Source of the DNA: Trachythela sp. YZ-2020
Lineage: Eukaryota; Cnidaria; Anthozoa; Malacalcyonacea; Clavulariidae
Assembly: GCA_016169945.1 (NCBI GenBank)
Contig: JADLSH010000076.1
Span: 1,431,001 to 1,495,000, forward strand
Reading direction: 5' to 3'
Length of the DNA: 64,000 nt
Shown: positions 5,817-55,294 of the stretch, piece after piece
How positions within the stretch are numbered: position 1 is the first letter of the stretch
Layout of the letters: every line of letters begins with the position of its first letter
Program-made: the position numbers and the translations under genes
Notes under the pieces: model-generated
Seen by the model: the letters and a program-made list of their open reading frames with translations, nothing else
Database searches by the model: none
Told to the model about the DNA's origin: nothing

Positions 5817-6405
5817 ATGGATCTAAACTTTTCCGAGCTGTACGTGCATAATAAAAAAAAACGCACAACTGGAATGCAGCCTTTAGAATCGAGCACTTGG
5901 GAACCATCTGTGAACTTGTCTACTGATTTATTAAGGTGAGTTGACTGGTTGAGCTACAGTATTACTGTAGGTGTTTAATAATTACAGATCATACATGTAT
6001 CTTGAAAGCATTTTTAGATTTTGTAATTCAAGTATTTTTCATGTTCTATATCTATCTAGGGGTTATGAAAGACCACCAAGGCCAACTATCACCCGACTGG
6101 AACATGCTGCTAGAGCCTTTGTTAATGGTATTTTAAGCGTGTTAAAATCAAAAGCAGTGGGGACAGGGCACATTCAAATGGGTTTAGATATCTGGAGATA
6201 TATTGTTCAAGGGAAAGGAGTGCCATGTGAACATAGGGGTTGTATTTTGTACAACAAAGATGATTTTAATCGTATACCAATGCTTCCATCAGACTGGTGG
6301 TATTATCTGACAGAACATGGTGAAGGAAGGCAAATAAAGTTCCCATTAAAAGCTAAACCAGTTCTTCTTTGGTTGCCTAAGAAACATGCTCTCTATAACA
6401 GATAA
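5817..6405 (+). CDS. Two-exon gene of unknown function, ~154 aa
   Basis: Exon 1 runs from the ATG at 5817 to 5935 (start MDLNFSELYVHNKKKRTT, a basic KKKR patch) and ends at a good donor, AG|GTGAGT. Exon 2 starts at 6060 after a pyrimidine-rich acceptor (ctatctag|g) and runs to the stop at 6403-6405. Phases match: exon 1 leaves two bases and exon 2 supplies one, giving an arginine codon, so the join keeps frame. The body contains RPPRPTITRLEHAARAFVNG, GVPCEHRGCILYNKDDF and a Trp-rich SDWWYYL stretch; I recognise no family. It lies between a dead LINE and HECT-like debris, so it could be a host gene or part of a mobile element. Unusually for this window it has no internal stop or frameshift. 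Confidence 0.6.
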
Positions 6406-6804
6406 CAATAAGTTTTCAAGTCTTTTAACCTTTCGGACAATCTTAAGTCGAATTTACCTCCCCCCTTTGGACATCCTAAAACACCCTTCCTCTCCTCCGG
6501 ACAGCACAAATTTCCTCCATGGGTGGGGTATGGATTTTTTCTGGAACGACCCATTGGCAAAAGGTTTTTTAACCCGGCCATAATAAGGCACAATGCACCC
6601 TGGTGGTGGCAGTGGTGTACAATCAGTAGATGACAAATGAAGATGGGTTGACCAGGGGGGAGTATTCATGAATGAAATGCATGTAGGAGATAAATTATTA
6701 AAATAGAGTAACAAGAAAGTGCATCATATGACAAATTTCTATCTACATACACTATGCTACATGAATGTCCAACAGTAATAATTATTAATTTTTGTTCTGC
6801 CCAC
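6406..6804. other. No gene recognised; C-rich patch
   Basis: Short frames on both strands near 6386-6714 overlap a GC-rich patch and have no domain. This is probably intronic or 3' sequence of the decayed HECT-like gene on the minus strand. Confidence 0.4.
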
Positions 6805-7345
6805 CTGGCTTGCTGTTACTTTGTAACCTGTATCAGGTATATCTTCAATGGATAATTTCTGGTTTGATATGAAGTTAAACACAGCTGGATGTAAAAATGC
6901 TATGGCAGGTCCACATTGCAATATTGACATGACCATCACCTCTCCTGCAAGCTTGAAATCCTCATTTTGAAGGGCACCTATTGAGTTTATTGGCTTTCCA
7001 TTGCTGAATAGTTTTGCCTCAACATACTATGCACAATAATACTATGAATTATTAAAAAGACTAACATATTAGATTAACTAGAAATAATACTTCCCCTTTA
7101 ACCCATTAAGGTGCAATGCGCACTGGTTCATCCTATTTTATTATTTTACTCTGTTGAATGCCAGACACTTTGCTGCTCAAGGGAAGGCTCTTGCCTCTTA
7201 ATGGGATAAGACATACTTATAAGTGGACAAAAGTAAACAAAATCTCCCTGTTGACATGTTGTATCTGTGACAGTTAAGTTTGCTGGTGAAAAAGTTACCT
7301 GAAAAGAATTATCTCTTTGGTCCTCCATTATCTACTGCAGGTTCA
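6805..7345 (-). pseudogene. HECT-type E3-like gene, two decayed exons
   Basis: On the minus strand, one exon near 7345-7275 encodes an EPAVDNGGPKR-like stretch with an in-frame stop, then a donor CAG|GTAACT. A second exon, 7026-6805, lies between an acceptor (GCATAG) and a donor (CAG|GTGGGC). It encodes a segment with ALQNEDFKLAGEVMVMSILQ, CGPAIAFLHPAVFNFI and LSIEDIPD. These line up, by my reading, with the N-lobe of HECT-like proteins such as the one at 51.4-54.3 kb: GGP-R-E-FF, then an AG-x(4)-M/S-h-GP-FL/S-P motif. Phases do not match across the intron and a stop is present, so this is a relic. It is probably a diverged copy of the same transposon-borne gene family. Confidence 0.6.
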
Positions 7346-7523
7346 CTGACCCTGCCCTAGTTGGTGAAGCTAAATAAATAAAATAAATAAGAAAACAACT
7401 CGAATCGGTGTACCTCCAGTAAGGTACTTCCACTTCTCCGGGCGCATGTTCCCCCTGGAAATTTTTGAATTTTGGGCCTCTGAAATGGCATTTCCAGCAT
7501 TCTGAGAACACATTTTGGAAAAT

Positions 7524-7990: not shown

Positions 7991-9981
7991 TATACATCGC
8001 ACTGGCCATAGTGGCCATAGGGAACTGTAAGAAGAATTCGAAGTAGCCTGTCGACTTGTTGTAGCATGATTTTACTGTAGCGACAGGTATTGAAGAGTTG
8101 CACAATGGTACCTATGGAAGTGACCTTTTTCACACCCAGTTGGTGTTCTACATTTGCAGTCCGCAGTAAGTCTGGAAGCATGCACACCTGAATCCTCAAT
8201 CTGTCAAGGTCGAGGTCTTTTGCATATAATGCTTGGATTGTGACGCCATTACAAGACTTCAATAGCAAAATCTAAATTTCTTTCAAAATTGCAAAAGAAG
8301 GTTGGTTGAATCCGCGCCCCAGCTCATTTATCAGCAGATCCAATACTTCAAAATACTGATGATGAAAAAAACCTTCTGGTGACGTAAATGTGTAATTGGG
8401 AGAACCGTCATCAAGACGTTTAGGTATGGCTGTAGGTCGGCAAAGTTTGGGGTCTCTGTCAGATTCTTTGATTTGCTAACGGTCGCTTGAAAGAATTCAG
8501 AAAATGCTGGGTCAGAGTGTTGCCTGGTAAGGAATGATACTGCTTGAGAGACACCCATCGCAGCATCCTGGGCATTAAGGTCATCATGCCCCTGTAATGT
8601 TCTGGAGAGTTCCTCAGCAACACTGAACACCAAGTGTTCAGTTGCCAAGTGTAGCCCAAAGAAAGTTTGAAACCATTCCATTAAAGCAACGTAACCAGAT
8701 GCATTTGGAGCTGAAGCTCCAGAATCCTTACTCACTTGTTCTAGTTCTTTACAGATGATTTCATAGTTCTTCAAGATGGCGTCAATCGCACCTGTTCGCA
8801 CAATCCAGCGGGTTGGACATAGTGGTTTCAATCCTGGAGCATCCACGTTGAATTCTTCTTGTAAGTGTCCAAAAATTGCAAGATGCTTTGGCGATGCACA
8901 TAAGAGCTTCTTTTACTGCATCACACTGGCGCCCGCAATCCTGCAGACACAAATTGAGATTATGTGCCAAGCAATGAACAAAGAGTGCAGACGGCTCGTC
9001 CTCCTGAAGACGCTTTGCAACACCGCTGAGGCACCCTACCATGTTGGCAGCCCCATTGTATGCTTGTCCACGACACTGAGTAAGCGGAAGAACACAAGTG
9101 TCCTTAACTGCCAATGTTAGGTTTTCTGCAGTTGTGCTCTCTACTTCAACCATCCCAATCAGATCTTCGGAAATGTTGTACTCCGAGTCTACCCAACGTA
9201 TGGAAACTGAAAACTGTTCAGCACCGCTTAGGTCTCGGGTTTCATCAGCAATGATTGAATACCATTCAGCATCCCGAATTTCTGCAAGTAGTTTTCTCAA
9301 GACCTTCATATACATCAATTGAATCAATTTGTTGACTATGTCATGTGATCTCTCCCTTTCTTAGCCATGCTTCAAGGCCAGGCACATCTTCACCCCTGCA
9401 TTTAAGAACCTGGTAAAGGTTTCCTTCTTCTTCAGTGTGTCCGCGAATGGCAACACCCTGTCGCAGAAGTAATTTCAGGGATGATAACAACTTCATGAGC
9501 ATATTTCGGTGCTCAGCTTGATCTTTGCGTACTTGATTGGAAAGCAGACAAGCTACTGAGCCTTTTACTGATGCTTGCCTTGTCTGATAAGTAAAGCCTG
9601 TTTTGCCTTCTTCCAGTTACTGAAACCCTCATCAGTAAAAGCGGGTTCAGCTCTCTTATTAAATACTGATGGAGATGCTTTTCGGCAATAGAAGCAGAAC
9701 ACTCTATTCCTTGAGGTGCAAAACATTAACCAGTCATATTCCTGGAACCAGTTGGAAGAAAATGACCGAGTTTGCTGTCCTTGTCTCTTGCTGGTTGAAC
9801 GAAAGTGAATATTTGGATGGTACGGATTTGGGAGATCATGTTTGCAACATTCACATGTACAATCTTGCCCTAGTTCACGTTGTTCAGTAACTTCATTTGC
9901 TCCTATCTCATCAGCCTCATCTGACAGTGGATGGTCCATTGTCTGTATCTCAACAGCCTCATCTGACTGTGGACGTTTCAT
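7990..9981 (-). pseudogene. hAT-type transposase with TTF zinc finger
   Basis: Read from 9981 down: an acidic N-terminus; a TTF-type zinc-finger region (residues ~45-125: CTCECC, then FSSNWFQEYDWLMFC, FCFYCRK, GFSNWKKA); a frameshift near 9570; a GVAIRGHTEEEGNLYQVLK segment; then the DDE fold with IIADETRDLSGAEQFSV, CRGQAYNGAANM and HCLAHNLNLCLQD. C-terminal parts continue to 7990 in other frames (NVEHQLGVKKVTS, LLRILLTVP). In this class the CRGQ-Y-x-G motif normally has Asp before Gly; here it is Asn, so a catalytic residue is lost. The reading ends at LTVP, before the hAT C-terminal dimerisation block. It is an inactive copy. No terminal repeats were located. Confidence 0.85.
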
Positions 9982-16237: not shown

Positions 16238-17640
16238 GCACTAGTGACATCCGTCAATGTCGGAAAGAGGAATCTGCGATTACAGATTTACGAAGAACAT
16301 TCCCGGACGTTGACTATGCCATGTTAGGCTATATCATAAAAGGCTTCCCAGAATCCAACAGTCATGATCCTGGTTTTACTCACCGCATCTTTGTAGTTGA
16401 CTACGGGAAAGACTCCCTCACTGCAGATTGTCGCTACAGTGTGCCAAAAGGATTTTTGATCATTCCGGATGTATCCTGCGTTACTTCATTTAAATCATCC
16501 ATCATATCATCATACACAAAAAAAACTGAAAAATCGCTTGCAGTATCAGTTCGAACAGCGGGGTAATTTCAGTTTTTCTGCAAGTTCCTCTTATAAGACA
16601 ACATCTAGTCAAGTCTCAACCGGAGAGAAAGTCTTCATAACATCATCAGCAAAGTGTAGCTACTACTTCAGTGAGATTGATGCAACGCAACGACCTTCTC
16701 TGAATCCAGGATTTTTGCACTGGGCAAGGGATCTACAGAAGAATGTTAGTGATGAACGCTTAGTCAAATTTGTCAAATATTATGGTACGCATTTCCCCAC
16801 AAGTATTGTATTTGGCGCACATTGTATACCAAAGCATAGAATGACAACTGAGACTTTCAAAACAGCTTCTTCTAGAGAGATCAGCGTTTCGGTTCAGGCA
16901 AGTTACTCCGGTCTGTTCAGTTTTAGCGGCGGTTTTAGCATGGACAAAAGGGAGTGCGAAGCTGCTTCACAGTTCGCCCAAGACGTAGAGACAACGACAG
17001 TGAGTGTAGGTTCTTCACCGCCTCCTACTGGAGATGCTATGTTGTGGGCATCTTCAGTGAAAGATAACCCAGTACCAATATCCTATAAGCTTAAACCAAT
17101 CTCCGAGTTGTTCTCACCTCTGTACATGAAGGATAGTGGAATCAATTACAATTACCTGAGAAGAAAACTAGCGGGAATTGAAAAAAATACTGCAAGCAAT
17201 TGTTGAACGAGGGCTCAATGAATACCTGTGATGATACTATTCGTATTGGATTACGGATAACTAATCATTGGATTACGGATAACTACTCTACGGTAGTAAC
17301 CCACACACGCTAAAAGTGCCAGAGTCATCTTGTATATCTCAATGTTTCGATGACCAGTTTTGTCAAGCTGTCACATATGTTCCTAGAGATTCCACTTGCT
17401 CTTTTCATAATGGTCAAACCAAACTTATTCCTGTTGAAGAATCCAAAACAACCCTCGCGTGATTATCCTTCCTTCCCGAATTAAACACCTTAAAAAAGAA
17501 CTTGTAGTTCGTGGTCTTGAAATTGGCGATAGAGCGAGAGATTACAGCACAAAAGTGAACAGTGAAGCTGCTTGTAGAAATATTTGTGTCAAAGCTTCAG
17601 TGTGTGATATTTTTACCTTCGTAAAAAGTGTTTTGTAAAC
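16238..17640 (+). pseudogene. MACPF-domain gene with PAN/apple-like C-terminus, broken
   Basis: An exon begins after the acceptor tttttag at 16238. The first frame (to 16566) has DIRQCRKEE, ADCRYSVPKG and a Cys-containing segment typical of the N-terminal part of membrane-attack-complex/perforin domains. A frame change in a short G run near 16556-16562 leads to the second frame (to 17206), with FSFSASSSYK, KYYGTHFP...FGAH (the MACPF signature, with G-A where G-G is usual) and VKDNPVPISYKL near the end of the fold. Another frame change occurs in an A run near 17180. Then two cysteine-patterned segments follow in separate frames, 17313-17460 and 17480-17637, resembling PAN/apple domains. MACPF proteins form pores and act in immunity, development or venom; nothing here says which. 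With three frame changes this is a pseudogene or error-prone sequence. Confidence 0.7.
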
Positions 17641-31822: not shown

Positions 31823-33096
31823 AGTGTTGATATCCGTAAGATAACGCATTTTAGAAAGAATACCTATACTTCGTTTTATTTTTTTACCAATATAGTCAAT
31901 GTAACTCTTCCAATTCAAATGAGAGTCAATAAAAACTCCAAGATACCTTGTACTATATACTCTTTTTAGTTCAATACTATTAATTTCTAGCTTAATGTCA
32001 TAAGTGATCTTTTTTTGTACAGGATGGAACAAGATAAAATTTGATTTATCTATATTCAGAGACAATTTATTAGCACAAAGCCATGTATGAATGTTAAATA
32101 ATTCTTTATTCATATCCGAATTGAGAGTCACAAGATTTTTATGTTTATAAAATAAGTTTGAATCATCTGCGAAAAGGTGGAAATCCATATATAAAAGTCA
32201 TTGATATATAAGAGGAAAAGTAGTGGGCCAAGCACTGATCCTTGGGGTACACCACAATTTACTGAACTGAAATCTGAGGATATGTTATCCAAAGTCACAA
32301 AATGTTGTCGATTGCTAAGATACGAGACAAACCATTCCTTGGCAATACCTCGAATGCCATACTTTTCCATTTTTCCGATCAGAATATTATGATCAATGGT
32401 ATCAAATGCCTTGCTAAAATCAAGAAATATTCCACATGAATAGTTTCTATCCTCTATTGCTTGTTGAATTTTGTCAATAATGCATAATACAGCATGGCTA
32501 GTTGAATGCTGAGTTCGAAAACCAAATTGCTTTTCATATAGAATATCATATTTAAGAAAGTTCATAACTCTCTTATACATGAGTTTTTCTAATATTTTAT
32601 TAAACACTGTTAATAGAGAAATTGGTCAATAGTTGTTTGGGGAACTTTGCATACCCTTTTTAAAAATTGGAATAACTTGAGCTATTTTTAGATTACTAGG
32701 TACTATTCCTTGAGATAAAGAAGCATTGAATACTATTTCCAGGCGCTTACGAATTACATGCTTCAGGATCTTCATTACTCTTATTGGTACACTAAATGGT
32801 CCACAGGCCTTACCAAGTTTTAGACTTGAAATTTCAGTTTCAATTTCTGTAGGTGTTACTGGATAAATGTAAAAGCTATCAGAATATGTTTTGTCTAGAT
32901 AATCAAGTGGAGAATGGTTTACATTTGGAATGGAGTTTGCTAAGTTGCTACCAATATTAGCAAAATAATTTGAAAAATAATTAGCCATTTCCTTAATTTC
33001 ATTAGCCATTTCCCATATTTCATAACTTCCATCTTGGATTTTAGCTGGGACATGATTGGATTTTGTTTTTAGATGTATAATTTGCTTGATTCCTTT
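31823..33096 (-). pseudogene. LINE reverse transcriptase
   Basis: Three collinear frames: 33009-32626 (RT fingers, KACGPFSVPIRVMKILKHVI ... IAQVIPIFKKG), 32607-32128 (FGFRTQHSTSHAV, IFLDFSKAFDTIDH motif A, CGVPQGSVLGPLLFLLYIND motif B), and 32188-31823 (HLFADDSNLFY motif C, WLCANKLSLNIDKSN, YLGVFIDSHLNWKSYI). All catalytic Asp residues (FSKAFD and FADD) remain. The polymerase copies LINE RNA at the nicked target. Only one stop, one frameshift and the TTAA insertion disable it. Confidence 0.85.
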
Positions 33097-47853: not shown

Positions 47854-48427
47854 ATGGCTTCAGCAAGTGTCATGAATCCTACTTCTATTGAAGCGGATAT
47901 TATAAGTGATTTGCTGAGATATTTTTCTGCTCGACCAACTGCCGAACAAAATGCAATAGTTAAGCATCGACCAACACCACAATTGACCGTTACGACAAGG
48001 GGGAGAGCGTTTCAGTAGGCTTGGTATGAGAGGAAAGATTGGCTTTGTGGCACCTCTGTGTTGGGAAAGTTATTTTCCTGGCCTTGTCTTTTGTTTTGCC
48101 GTGGAAACCTTGCCAACGTGGATGAAGAATGGCTTCGTGAATATGCAAGGCTTCCTCTCCGATTGCAAAAAGCATGAAGAGCCAAAGTCACACATGAGTG
48201 CTTTTAAGACCTGGAAGACGTTTGGAGCCGGTGTGCGAGTGGATTCTCTGCTCTCTCAAGCAAGACAAGATGAAATTCAGCGCCACAATGAAGAGGTAAG
48301 GCAAAATAGAGAAATATTAAAAACTATTACCGAAGCTGTTTTGTACTTGTCTAGACAAGAGCTGGCATTCAGAGGCCATGATGAATCGGAAGGTAGCCTG
48401 AATAGAGGTAATTATAGGCAGTTACTT
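47854..48427 (+). pseudogene. hAT-2 transposase, 5' half (split by DDE/HECT element)
   Basis: ATG at 47854 gives MASASVMNPTSIEADIISDL, then TPQLTVTTRGRAFQ with TAG where Gln or Arg is expected, then AWYERKDWLCG (TTF-type zinc-finger region) in that frame. After a frame change the frame from 48026 gives FVNMQGFLSDCKKHEEPKSH, VRQNREILKTITEAVLYLSR and QELAFRGHDESEGSLNRGNY, as in TTF/DUF4371-type hAT transposases. The reading stops at codons Gln-Leu-Leu, exactly at the 8 bp duplication AGTTACTT. It resumes at 54758 with the same codons. Confidence 0.8.
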
Positions 48428-48938
48428 ATGGGGTGCCATATCCGCCAGAATTATATAAATACGATATTATCATCCATTTTTTATAATTAGCTACCTTATT
48501 TTTATTATTATTCAGATTATTTTTGTTATTATTCAGCCTATTTATTATTATTCAGCTTATTTTTATTATTATTCAGCTTATTTTTAATATTATTCAGCTT
48601 ATTTTTATTATTATTCAGCCAATATTTTTAATTATTCAGCTCATTTTTAATTATTCAGCTTATTTTTATTATTATTCAGCTTATTTTTATTATTATTCAG
48701 CTTATTTTTATTATTATTCAACTTATTTTTTATTATTCAGCTTATTTTATTATTATTCAGCTTATTTTTATTATTATTCAGCTTATTTTTTATTATTCAG
48801 CTTATTTTTTATCATTCAGCTTATTTTTATTATGCAGCTTATTTTTTATTATTCAGCTTTTTTATTATGCAGCTTATTTTTATTATTCAGCTCCAATTTT
48901 CATTAGCCAGAGGTCTGGGACTAGCGCGGCCATGTGGA
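48428..48938 (+). repeat. Left TIR (511 bp) with tandem subterminal units
   Basis: Unique tip at 48428-48525, then about 20 units around 'ttattattcagcttattttt' to 48890, then an inner block 'ttcattagccagaggtctgg' to 48938. A long open frame through the array encodes only Leu/Ile/Phe/Tyr and is an artefact of the repeat. Confidence 0.92.
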
Positions 48939-48967
48939 CCGGAATTCATTGAAAATTCACTTTCAAA

Positions 48968-50444
48968 ATGGCGGAAAACAATGTTGGTGACAATTTTAAT
49001 TTGAGAGAAATGGTGTATAGAAAACTACGTTCTGTAGAGCAACTACTTACACAGCAAACCAATAATAACTTGTTAGATATACCTAGTTTTTTAGAAACAA
49101 TTGAAACATTGATGCAATGCGTTGTTTTGTTGGACTCTTTTGAATCGGTTTCCGAAAATGTTATGCGTTGTTTAATGCAAGCATATAACCTGCTGTCGAG
49201 GAACACTAACGATATCAGAAGAAACAACAATCAAGCACAGCTCAATAATGGCACTGGTTCAGTTGGTCGTCCTTCGTTAATTATCTCAAGGGAGCAAGTC
49301 GAGTATTTGATGGAATGCAATTTCATGGTCAAAGAGATGAGTGACATACTCGGCGTATCCAAAAGAACAGTTGAAAGAAGAATGAATCAATATGAGCTAA
49401 CAAACATGAATAGGTTCACCGCAATAAATGATGAGCGATTGGATGCCACAGTGAATGAAATCAAAAGTTTGTCACCAGATTGTGGTTCCAAATTATTATC
49501 TGGATATCTTCGAGCAAGAAATATCCATGTTCAAAGAAGACGTGTCAGGGAATCCCTTACTAGGGTTGATCCATTGGGTATTCAAGCTCGGCGTTGTAGA
49601 ACAGTTCATCGAAGGGTCTATAACGTTTCACATCCTCTTGCTTTATCGCACTTTGACGGAAATCATAAACTTATACGCTGGCGCTTGGTTGTGCATGGAT
49701 GTGTTGATGGGTATACCCGCATACCTGTGTACTTACAGTGCAGAAACAACAATAAGGCAAACACTGTTCTAGCGCTTTTTATGAAGGCTGTAGATGATTG
49801 GGGTAGTGCGATGTGACAAGGGCGGAGAGAATGTCGATGTTACTCGTTATATGCTTGGTCATCCAATGCGAGGGCCGGATCGTGGGTCTGCAATAACTGG
49901 CAAGAGTGTACATAATCAGCGCATAGAGCGGCTGTGGCGTGATGTCTTTCAAGGAGTGTTGAAACCGTTTTACATTCTTTTCTATTTAATGGAAGATTAT
50001 GGCATACTAGATCCTTGTGATGAAACTGACCTATGGTGTCTATATTATGTATTTTTGAAGGAAATAAATGATTGTTTATCTCGTTGGGTTGAAGCATGGA
50101 TACGACATCCACTAAGAACTGAGCACAATCGAAGCCCTTTGCAGCAATGGATCACTGGTATGCGCTGGAGTAGTATAAATGTCCCTCAACCAGAGAACAA
50201 TAACTGGGACCTTTTTGGTATCGATTGGACTGGTCCTATACCCATGGATGGTGAAGCAATTGCAACTACACTGGAAGTCCCAGAAACACTATTTCCAGTT
50301 GCTGATGAAAGGAGAATTGAGTTGAATGAAACTTTAATCGAAATAAGCAGCCATCACGGAGATGACATTATGGAGCAATACTACGTTGTACGAAATAGTG
50401 TTAGAGCAAAACTTTCAGACCAACGTGGACAAACAACATACTAG
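48968..50444 (+). pseudogene. DDE integrase-like transposase
   Basis: ATG at 48968, 30 bp inside the left TIR, gives MAENNVGDNFNLREMVYRKL. Residues ~110-145 look like a helix-turn-helix (EQVEYLMECNFMVKEMSDIL, GVSKRTVERRM). The catalytic core follows: first Asp in SHFDGNHKLIRWRLVVHGCV, second in [15 protein letters not shown], Glu in [13 protein letters not shown], then [13 protein letters not shown] and [10 protein letters not shown], typical of rve-like integrase domains of unclassified cnidarian and fish transposons. A small deletion near 49803-49810 shifts frame between the first and second Asp, so this copy is dead although the D, D and E codons all remain. Stop at 50442-50444. It should bind the TIRs and perform strand transfer. 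Confidence 0.85.
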
Positions 50445-51423
50445 GGCTGTTCGGTGTGCAGATATATGGAAAATATCAGTATGAAATCCAATATCAGTAC
50501 AACTGTACAATATACATAGGAGCACATAATGAAATTGCAATGGGAAACAGTTTCATAAAAGTTTATTAACAATAGTACAGTACATTATATATATATATAG
50601 CTAATTCAATAAAGGTTGTCCTTTGCAATAGGGATGAATTTACTGGGGGTGCACACCCCCTCCCTAGTCCTGGCCCAGAGGGGGTGCTATTTTTCATGGT
50701 AAAGCATAAACATATTAGAGACAAAATGAGATACAGTAATTTGAGTAATAACATGATGATAAGTGAACTGTGCACAATTTATCAACAAAGCATCATTTAA
50801 TCAGTTTACTCACTCGCGAATAGCTACAATATTCAATTACTAAGCTTGAAATGTCCGATCCCACTAAACTTTGCACGCTTAGAGTTTAAGGTTTGCAAAG
50901 GACAACTTTTTTGAATTAGCTGTAATTATATAACATGTTTTAAAACAAAAGTAATGCTATTAAAACACAACAAATTTTAATTATAAAAATAGTTATAAGA
51001 TAAACAAAAATACTGCGTATATTAAGTTAAAGTAAAATTGACACTTAGTATGGTAAGAGTTCAAAAAAAATGTGGATAGACAAACAATTTTGTTAATTTC
51101 AATTGTTTACCAGTTTCAACAACCGCTAATAGTAACTACTCTAATAAATTATTTACTTTAATCTTAATAATAAATGATTAAAGGTTAAAGGGTTCAATAA
51201 GAGAAGAAAAAGAGAGCCTAAGTTCAACCAAACGTGAGCCAAATGGTGATGAGGGCCAAAATGTTTGTGGGAGTTGAAAGCAATCAACAACAAGAAAACA
51301 TGTTCATGGGCACCCTAGCAAGTGTGGTAATCCAACTGGAACAATATCAAAGTAAAGTATACTAATATACAATCAACTCAGTCACTTGAGTTTCTCCTAA
51401 TAAACTTACATTCTTGTGTTCAA
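50445..51423. other. Spacer between convergent genes
   Basis: The 3' ends of integrase and HECT gene face each other here. AT-rich, with a (TA)n run at 50588 and a G/C phrase (gggggtgcacaccccctccc) at about 50644. No gene. Confidence 0.55.
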
Positions 51424-54266
51424 CTAAGGTATACCAAAACCCTTAGCATTTCTAACAGCAAATTGAAAATCAGATTTGAAGTCAACATACTTAGTGTGAA
51501 CAATAGGAAGATGGAGTATGCAAGAGCAAGTGTTTGCTTTAGGGAACTTTGAGAGAAGACCATTTTTTTCTGGTTCATGCAAGAATTGTAACTGCATTAA
51601 AATGCTTCGACAAGAATGAATCAGAACTTAAAACTTGTGGATAGAAACAAAACACTCTTCGGAACACAGAATTCTCAACAACAGCATCAAGCAAACCTAA
51701 GCATGTTATTCCACTTTTAAAGCTCTCATAGGCTGCCCTAGTCCTATCAAGGACATACCAGTGAGCAATTTCACAAACCACATCTTTAACATCGCTTATG
51801 CTTCGCAGAACTCTTAGGGTGCCAGAAAGCTCTTGAATTTACTCTAATTTCGTATCTACTATCAACCTATTGGCTTCATCGACCGATTCAACAGACATCA
51901 AATTTTTAAGAGTCGACTGCAACTCCAGATCATACACATCGTCAATAGAAACATGAACTTTTGCATGGCCTTTAATAAGAGAATCAAATAACACAGGGCT
52001 AAAACAACAAGGACCTATTCCAGCATGAACTAGAGCCATTGAAATTAACTGACCAGCCATGACATACTCGTCATGTTTCAGAGCCTTGGCATCATAAGAC
52101 AACAACCTTGAATGTTCTTGCCCACAAAAAAGTTTGCTTGATAATATTGCTTCAAGGGATAAAGTAAAAAATTCCCTCATTGGCCCCCCCATATCCACTG
52201 CACCTTCAGAGAGACCAACATCATCAGTAAATTTTACTGATAAATAACTTCTTGTTTGGAGAAAAAGACTTCCTGGTCATTCCTTGAAAAATGCCATCGC
52301 AAATATTACTGCGGCATATATTGAATTTGGAAATTTTTTCATTTTCGATGTTGGCAGATGCAAGCTGTTGTAAAATATCACTAATATCTATAACAACTTC
52401 ATCAACCTTTGGACAATTTTCATCATCCTTTTCTTCAATTAGTTCAGTATCTTCATCTGATTTTCAGCATTAATCTCATGGAACAGAAGAGAGGCATACA
52501 GAAAATCATCACTTTCTTGTGTGTCCTGCATCTTGGTAGACTCTGGGTTGCCACCAACCTATATGAACAAACTTAGTGATTGGTTGTTCATTATAACAAT
52601 AAAAGACAATTAATTATAGAAATCATCTTTCTAAGGAAGTTTAATATTTATTTAATATTTTATTTTTTTATTTAATTTTTTTTTAATTGTTTAATATTTT
52701 CATGTTACCATGGCAACCACAGAACCACTATTGTTTTTAATCATCAAATACTTCATGTGGAAATTCTATACTTCATCTGTTAAGAAAGACTTCATCTGTT
52801 GCTGCATGCATGTATTTCTAGTTTTAAGTTGGTATTTACCCAGGTCTCTGGATTGTCTGTTCCACTCGGTTTATGAAGGAAGGCAACCTCAGGTAGTATT
52901 TCCTCTTCATCAGCACCATAAGCATCATCAACTTCAATAACACTTATATTCTGATCCCTATGATTTCATATTTATTACATGATTAATTAAGCATTGAAAT
53001 TCAAATGAGGAAATATCTAGTTCATAGGAACTCAATATAATTTAGACAGGTGGCAGATAGAGACAGGTGGCAGCGGGTTATTCACTATTGGCAAATTAAA
53101 AATTAGAGCAAGGGAGGGGGGTGGAATTAAACAAGTGTTTCAACTCATTGCAATTTTGTTGCCAGAAGAAATTTTGGCATTTCCAAGGAAATGTGCTGGG
53201 AGCCTAGGAAAAATACATTACAAATAAATAGCAAGGAAATTTTGTTGTCACAAAGGAAATAGGAAGGAAGTTGCCTTATTTCTAATAAATCCTAAGAATA
53301 CAGCAATTTCCAAGAAAATCCACTTCAGAAACTGCCAAAAATCCTGTCATGCAGAAACTGAAAATCTGAAAATGTTCTGGGGGAGTGCCCCCAAATCCCC
53401 TATTAATTCTACTTTGAGTAAACTCTCATTTTGACCAGTGGCATGGGAAGCAATTTGATATGGGGTGGGGGGGGGCATCTTCCTAAAGTAGTGTATAAAG
53501 CTTACCTGGTATTTGTAGGGGTAGTTGCCGTATTCTTTGCAGGACATAAGTAAAGATGTTCCCTCAACTTATTCATAGGGAATATATTCATACAATGATT
53601 ACAGCTCTCTTCTATGATTTCTCCTTGATCTTTGGCTTTAACGATAGCTTTTAAGTCAAGGTTGCATTGTATTGGGCGAATATATGCTCGTCCTTGTCCG
53701 ACAAACCGTTTGAGAAACTCAATGGTATACCCATTTTCTCCCTCAGCTATAACGGAAAGTTGACGAGAACTAGCCTTTGCGTGCATAAATTCATATCCAC
53801 CACTATCGGTCAACTTTGGGTATGTTTCCTTTAGTGCAGCCACAACATCAAAGGAAGTTGAGTCTGCTTGTAGGGTTACCTTCTTTTCGCCAAGTCCACC
53901 GACGAGCAACTGTTGCTTTTCATCATTATTAGGAACATCTCGCTGAGTGGTGCTCGCAAGACAGAAAAACTTTATTGATATTTCTTTCACTGATTTTCTT
54001 CTTTTTGGGGCCTTTGCATGATGATTTGTAGCTGCTCTTCGTTGGGGCGTATTGCCATTGGACGCATTTGTTTGAGTATACGGTGTAAACAGCCGCCGAA
54101 ATTCATCCCTCGCTCTCGCCGGCCTGTTGTTTGTCTCCGGCTGATTGGTGACTTCTGAAGCTTCTGTACTTCTACTTGTTGAAGGCTGTGAGCTTTGATT
54201 TATAAGGCTAGATGCCGCTTGTGACAATAGACGTGCAGCTTCGGCCAGGTCTGATTTTTTGGCCAT
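51424..54266 (-). pseudogene. HECT-type E3 ubiquitin ligase-like gene
   Basis: Minus strand. Exon 1, 54266-53506: MAKKSDLAEAARLLSQAASS, a basic linker (HHAKAPKRRKS), a SIKFFCLAS ... KLTDSGGYEFMHAK ... YIRPIQ module, and a C-x2-C-x12-H-x4-C finger (CNHCMNIFPMNKLREHLYLC), ending at donor CAG|GTAAGC. Exon 2, 52957-52840: VIEVDDAYGADEEEILPE. From about 52550: SDEDTELIEEKDDENCPK, ISKFNICRSNIW, then the HECT fold VKFTDDVGLSEGAVDMGGPM + REFF, YVMAGQLISMALVHAGIGPC, HWYVLDRTRAAYESF, and the catalytic-Cys loop NTCSCILHLPIVHTKYVDF at about 51520. Frame changes occur near 52460, 51840 and 51585. It resembles G2E3-like HECT proteins common in cnidarian and fish repeats. The role in transposition is unknown. 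Confidence 0.8.
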
Positions 54267-54360
54267 TTAAATAAAAGTTTTTTCGATAAAAATCAGTATT
54301 AGTCATGCGACATACGAAGTAAACAACGACATTCACGCTGAAAAGTGAATAATTTTCAAT

Positions 54361-54757
54361 TCCACATGGCCGCGCTAGTCCCAGACCTCTGGCTAATGAA
54401 AAATTGGAGCTGAATAATAAAAATAAGCTGAAAGCTGAATAATTAAAAATCTTGGCTGAATAATAAAAATAAGCTGAATAATAAAAATAAGCTGAATAAT
54501 AAAAATCAGCTGAATAATAAAAAATAAGCTGAATAATAAAAAATAAGCTGAATAATAATAAAAATAAGCTGAATAATAATAAAAATAAGCTGAATAATAA
54601 AAAATAAGCTGAATAATTAAAAATATTGGCTGAATAATAATAAATAGGCTGAATAATAACAAAAATAATCTGAATAATAATAAAAATAAGGTAGCTAATT
54701 ATAAAAAATGAATGATAATATCGTATTTATATAATTCTGGTGGATATGGCACCCCAT
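54361..54757 (-). repeat. Right TIR (397 bp) with tandem subterminal units
   Basis: Mirror of the left TIR: inner block from 54361 (tccacatggccgcgctagtc), about 13-14 units around 'gctgaataataaaaataa', then the unique tip to 54757. It is shorter than the left TIR because it has fewer repeat units. Confidence 0.92.
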
Positions 54758-55294
54758 AGTTACTTGAGTCTTTTGCTAAGTTTGATTCTGTTTTTGAACG
54801 GAGATTGCATGGTAGACTAGCTGATTCGGACAGGGGTGGTGATGCACGATTTACTGGGGTTTCCCCTGAGATCCAAAATGATTTCATTACTTGTCTGGAT
54901 TCAATTATTGAGGATTGTACTTTCATAAGTGTGCAGGTTGATGAGACATCTGATGTTTCCACCAAAGAGCAGGTAAGTATGATTGCCCATATAGATAAAG
55001 GTTGTGAGGTTGTTGAACTACAATTGGGATTTGTACATGTCAGTACAAATAGAGATGCTCCTGCTGTATCCCAGATTGTCAAAGACAAACTTAGTCAGCA
55101 TTCCAGGATCAAGGACAAACTGAACATGCAAAACTATATGATGGTGCTGCTGTAATGTCGGCCATATAAGTGGTGTCCAGGCTTGAGTTCATGAACAGTA
55201 TCCTTTTGCATATTTTGTCCATTGTGCAGCTCACAGATTAAATCTTGTTTTGTGTCAGTCTGCCTTCTCCTGTTAAAATTTTCTTTGTTAATGT
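54758..55294 (+). pseudogene. hAT-2 transposase, 3' part
   Basis: Resumes the hAT-2 frame at the duplicated codons and reads ESFAKFDSVFERRL, PEIQNDFITCLDSIIEDC, SVQVDETSDVSTKEQVSMIA (first catalytic Asp) and RDAPAVSQIVKDKLSQ. After a frame change it reads AKLYDGAAVMS (second Asp intact), then PFAYFVHCAAHRLNLVLCQS-like sequence across two more frames to about 55290. The C-terminal half, with the Glu and dimerisation domain, is missing and is replaced by the foldback at 55295. The catalytic Asp in YDGAA is kept, unlike in the hAT at 8-10 kb. Confidence 0.75.

Follow-up and report, generated by a model that had tools for sequence, protein, structure and literature searches.

Passages of two published accounts characterize the IS3EU (IS3EU/GingerRoot) superfamily of DNA transposons by TA..TA termini and a 6-bp target-site duplication (TSD) (PMC10045372), and by TAYGG..CCRTA ends with terminal inverted repeats (TIRs) longer than 30 bp (PMC12730594). 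The latter account also describes, in the part available, TET+ fungal IS3EU families in which an alpha-kinase gene is oriented opposite to the transposase. For the fish Cottus, a passage describes unclassified, expanding repeats and names G2E3 among their matches (PMC5638112). Here we analyze 64,000 nucleotides of the anthozoan Trachythela sp. YZ-2020 (GCA_016169945.1, contig JADLSH010000076.1, positions 1,431,001 to 1,495,000), a stretch referred to as the window, which holds a transposon of 6332 bp at 48427-54758. We consider it very probable that this is a decayed cut-and-paste transposon of the IS3EU superfamily, belonging to a family that carries a DDE transposase gene and, convergent to it, a gene for a HECT E3 ligase whose role in the element is a putative one.

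Boundaries and superfamily of the element

The element begins and ends with a 17-bp tip, TATGGGGTGCCATATCC, which is perfect at both ends. With up to 3 mismatches allowed, the window contains this tip at 48427 (+) and 54742-54758 (-) and nowhere else, the chance mean being 0.11. A preliminary description of this DNA had placed the element at 48428..54757 with perfect 16-bp tips; the element itself and the perfection of its tips stand, but the ends are corrected to 48427-54758 (TA..TA) and the tip to 17 bp. The left TIR has ~511 bp (48427..48937, +, inner end placed by hand) and the right one ~397 bp (54362..54758, -). From the outside inwards, both consist of the tip, a 21-bp tandem A/T array (48495..48887, +, and 54432..54690, -) and a GC-rich inner block, in agreement with the 400-510 bp structure reported before.

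The TSD is GTTACT, 6 bp long, at 48421..48426 and 54759..54764. It had been given earlier as the 8-bp duplication AGTTACTT, which looks 8 bp long because the flanking host bases (A on the left, T on the right) equal the terminal bases of the element. Twenty loci were fetched from the same genome, and in all seven copies that keep both tips the TSD is exactly 6 bp, with a different sequence each time (AAAATC, TCAACG, GGTTGT, CATATG, GATAAG, CTTTTC and GCTGTC); an 8-bp TSD is thereby ruled out. A scan for TIRs with TSDs detected 12 loci, against 0 of 100 shuffles. Locus L026 sits in an inverted duplication with palindromic flanks and was excluded, leaving 11 of 25 loci; for the four copies that the scan adds to the seven, the TSD length was preset to 6.

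These features agree with the published outline of IS3EU, although no superfamily had seemed to fit in the preliminary description. The ends read TATGG in the window and in 7/7 two-tip copies, and TATGG or TACGG in the four additional ones; the TSD is 6 bp in the window and in every copy measured, and both TIRs far exceed 30 bp. The transposase is of the rve-like DDE type, matching Pfam rva_4, and Pfam reported no N-terminal HHCC family. Other families of the same genome end in TACGG and TATGGA. A new superfamily, related to IS3EU yet distinct, would be compatible with the very long, array-bearing TIRs, with passages of the IS3EU literature that carry no mention of HECT, and with a comparison made to the description of IS3EU, not to a reference sequence. 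Since the element agrees with published IS3EU in its termini, its integrase type and the length of its TSD, and further families share such ends, we regard a new superfamily as quite improbable.

The element interrupts a DUF4371 (hAT-type) reading frame (48026..55155, +). When the flanks are joined and one duplication is retained, an open frame containing this domain is restored (E 1.1e-12), which bears out the frame-exact insertion proposed earlier. Another DUF4371 (hAT-type) piece is found at 8782-9327 (-).

The transposase and HECT genes as partners

The two genes inside the element face each other, the transposase on the plus and the HECT gene on the minus strand, as had been recognized at first; that both are broken in this copy was absent from that account. 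The transposase gene (48968..50444, +) encodes an integrase core of Pfam rva_4 (PF24764), which matches both halves of the protein, and its frame is broken near 49805, where ~11 bp are missing by manual comparison with relatives. The D, D and E codons are kept, as previously stated, and so are 60 of the 64 positions at which 20 aligned proteins are invariant, two of the four lost ones falling inside the frame break. Weak matches to helix-turn-helix domains were also obtained. A protein search returned 2273 homologues, of which 120 were listed; the DDE pattern fits 113 of these, with a D-E spacing of 36 in 88 and of 34 in 25. Corals, octocorals, a sea anemone, sponges and a jellyfish are named among the listed homologues, most rows being unnamed. 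No relatives were confirmed in prokaryote genomes, there were zero matches in phage records, and viral contigs yielded no confirmed relatives of either the transposase or the HECT protein; a search of viral contigs with the tip gave matches in two contigs. Between the two genes (50582-50938) lie two inverted 47-bp repeats, 85% identical and ~265 bp apart, perhaps a nested small element.

The HECT gene runs from 54266 to 51424 on the minus strand, in three exons predicted by eye with GT..AG splice sites. Exon 1 (53506..54266, -) encodes a conserved N-terminal domain with a C2HC-like finger and is followed by exon 2 (52840..52957, -) and exon 3 (51424..52558, -), which encodes the HECT domain. 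Exon 3 is disrupted by two frameshifts and one in-frame stop, and a deletion at 51612-51614 removes ~56 codons and changes the frame, but the C-lobe motif NTCSCILHLP retains the catalytic Cys, as the preliminary description had it. Its relatives encode a HECT E3 ligase domain with this Cys, and are predicted from their sequences to transfer ubiquitin. One of them, P0122, is complete, with Pfam HECT (7.7e-9) spanning positions 12-305 of 306. A profile of the family matches NEDD4L in the PDB (5hpk, E 3.7e-10), and an AlphaFold model (mean pLDDT 79) recovers HECT folds (best E 3.4e-13, query TM-scores 0.37-0.49, 13-18% identity among the matches listed) with the catalytic Cys aligned to that of known HECT structures. 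Among 67 database proteins of this gene, the C-lobe Cys is present in 57 and the site is not reached in 9 (53 were scored by pattern, and 14 pattern misses were read by eye). The closest named relatives of the HECT exon are coral and fish gene models labelled G2/M phase-specific E3 ligase-like (G2E3-like). In a TACGG-ended HECT family (L031:8205-8819, -) the upstream exon is different and matches a zinc ribbon weakly, below the cut-off (E 1.9e-4); HECT families thus seem to differ in their N-terminal module.

The partnership of transposase and HECT gene is conserved both in the window family itself and among several families related to it in this genome. The genome (578 Mb, 396 contigs) was surveyed with sets of at least 83 transposase and at least 74 HECT loci, each drawn from the best ~70-100 candidates and merged by hand from 92 and 103 rows, and loci within 8 kb of each other were counted as paired; expected values assume evenly spread loci. 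For the first HECT type, 14 of the 74 listed loci are paired with a listed transposase, 13 of them convergently, against ~0.2 expected. The association is strongest close to the window family, where nine of the ten listed transposases have a convergent HECT gene within 8 kb, the tenth (on C379) has one 19 kb off, and nine of the 11 listed HECT loci are paired. Among the listed transposases at 50% identity or less, one in 61 is paired with this HECT type. The second HECT type, which is strongly diverged (query P0149; 69 rows minus 11 that match the N-terminal exon only), gives 16 paired loci out of 58 where 0.16 would be expected, all 16 convergent and with transposases of 37-49% identity, so many distant transposases are also partnered, by another HECT type. 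A member of this type (L035) scores 20.9 bits, the Pfam cut-off being 23.9, and keeps the motif HTCGCTLELP.

Taken together, the two types form 30 paired loci among those listed, where ~0.36 would be expected, and 29 of the 30 are convergent. Adjacency by chance, for instance through nested insertions, could be imagined in a repeat-rich genome, the more so as the element itself lies inside a hAT gene and the expected figure, which assumes an even spread of loci, is crude. These counts and the convergent layout rule out chance pairing, which we consider extremely improbable, as does the finding that all eight two-tip copies (seven fetched and the window) hold HECT-gene sequence; short derivatives free of HECT were not looked for. 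It had been proposed beforehand that TIR copies never containing the HECT gene would speak against the association, and the partnership suggested there is now supported well beyond the window. Four HECT loci were also fetched from the 60 without a listed partner, chosen for high identity, and each was found to face a transposase of the rva_4 type, with a weak match (E 1.7e-7) in L033; two of them have complete TACGG-ended TIRs and 6-bp duplications. In 15 of the 20 loci L011-L030, the strand that faces the transposase carries the catalytic-Cys motif, against a shuffled rate of 0.12 per locus. L025 has an N-terminal HECT fragment; in L030 the HECT N-lobe is convergent, the Cys motif being absent. 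In the protein databases, four contigs (sizes 5401, 8881, 196594 and 236584) are common to the transposase and HECT matches, compared with a chance mean of 0.35 for all contigs and of 0.02 for those of at least 5 kb. As the identity of one protein drops, so does that of the other (transposase/HECT 87/86, 68/62, 67/59, 68/63, 68/60 and 71/72). A close-family HECT exon at G000:C217:854399-855672, with its N-terminal exon at 852686-853396, is more than 25 kb away from every listed transposase.

Selection on the ligase and its possible role

Copies with open frames exist in the genome for both genes. Between transposase copies of the window family, mean dN is 0.009 and mean dS 0.013, and most ratios against the window copy lie between 0.6 and 1.1 (about 0.8), which fits a recent burst whose copies have since been decaying. 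Between the window family and a family 68% identical to it, the transposase has dN of ~0.22 and dS near 2. For the HECT gene, all 15 between-family pairs that leave out the window copy differ at 34-38% of their nonsilent sites and at 76-78% of their silent ones. This nonsilent change, far below the saturated silent change, indicates that the gene is kept by selection; long-term purifying selection acts on HECT between families, and the catalytic Cys persists. Two dN/dS values obtained for HECT, 0.20 and 0.25, both used the frameshifted window copy, and no ratio is claimed.

Several points weigh against our reading of the element and of its second gene. Saturation of the silent sites means that the HECT gene has no exact dN/dS value. 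Membership in IS3EU rests on structure compared with the published description, not on a tree. No listed HECT locus lies within 8 kb of 53 of the 83 listed transposase loci, both sets being the best ~70-100 candidates. Among the fetched loci, HECT sequence was not found in L024, none lies inside the stretch fetched for L019, and in the rearranged L026 it is on the same strand as the transposase. Finally, P0149 has a Trp at the expected Cys site, where the protein ends.

The HECT gene might be a passive passenger, captured from the host and copied without a role. The decay of copies within the family (transposase dN/dS ~0.8), the badly broken HECT gene of the window and a HECT remnant of the window that sits outside any IS3EU element seen would suit a passenger. 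It is nevertheless unlikely, given that between families ~36% of nonsilent against ~76% of silent sites have changed, that the Cys motif persists, and that HECT genes of two widely diverged types share the convergent layout. The remnant, at 6790-7370 (-), is degenerate (best tblastn E 1.1e-5), and an open piece, RLEHAARAFVNGILSVLKSKAVGTGHIQMGLDIWRY, lies beside it at 6000-6400 (+); outside 48427-54758, the window has no match to a transposase of the element's type.

By analogy with the deubiquitinases of Helitrons (partial source PMC9741609) and the TET/JBP genes of fungal transposons, as far as passages on these describe them, we propose the following mechanism. The transposase would bind to the TIRs, whose A/T arrays may serve as repeated binding sites, and would then cut the element out and reinsert it, generating the 6-bp duplications. 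The HECT ligase, expressed from the other end of the element and made in trans, would take ubiquitin from a host E2, charge it on its catalytic Cys and modify a protein with a limiting or controlling effect on transposition. The most probable target is a silencing or restriction factor of the host, a proposal we judge evenly poised, and the transposase itself comes next as a tentative candidate. In the latter case the ligase would set the amount of transposase or help to dismantle the complex left after strand transfer, and so regulate copy number instead of countering host opposition. In paired loci the two genes are always neighbours, and their rates of divergence are similar, in line with such a role, and we see no specific point against it; it remains a possible though less probable alternative. 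Animal IS3EU elements may equally well prove to be standing two-gene transposons with HECT as a working partner. In them, a slot on the opposite strand would be kept for an enzyme that modifies proteins, HECT in our element and an alpha-kinase in the TET+ families of fungal IS3EU, and that disables silencing by the host or fine-tunes the transposase, the slot persisting as the HECT type diverged or was replaced.

Two other features of the window are an open frame encoding a MAC/perforin (MACPF) domain at 16469-17206 (+, E 1e-28), likely a piece of a host gene, and a reverse-transcriptase-like stretch at 32027-32844 (-) that matches the reverse-transcriptase part of P0132.

Comparison with known systems

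IS3EU is a known superfamily, and a HECT gene as its second gene is apparently new within the literature searched, in which no description of a HECT gene in a DNA transposon or in IS3EU was found; Repbase, which may hold such entries, lay outside this search. If our reading is true, a transposon-encoded ubiquitin ligase under selection would be a direct route from a DNA transposon to protein turnover, and it would suggest that transposon genes account for many coral and fish gene models labelled G2/M phase-specific E3 ligase-like. These G2E3-like models are the nearest named relatives of the HECT exon but are annotated as host genes. NEDD4/Smurf-type HECT E3 ligases share the whole HECT domain, by profile and by fold, and the aligned catalytic Cys, but differ in their N-terminal region and show 13-18% identity among the structure matches listed.

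In the passages describing IS3EU/GingerRoot (PMC10045372, PMC12730594), the TA..TA termini, 6-bp TSD, TIRs above 30 bp and rve-like transposase correspond to those of our element, in which no HHCC was seen; here, however, the second gene is a HECT E3 ligase and the TIRs contain long 21-bp A/T arrays. TET+ fungal IS3EU likewise has a second enzyme gene opposite to the transposase, the passage (PMC12730594) not stating whether that pair is convergent. Helitrons with VTD/OTU deubiquitinases, as the excerpt of PMC9741609 describes them, resemble our element in that a transposon encodes an enzyme of the ubiquitin system; theirs, in contrast, removes ubiquitin and is a domain fused to RepHel in a rolling-circle element.

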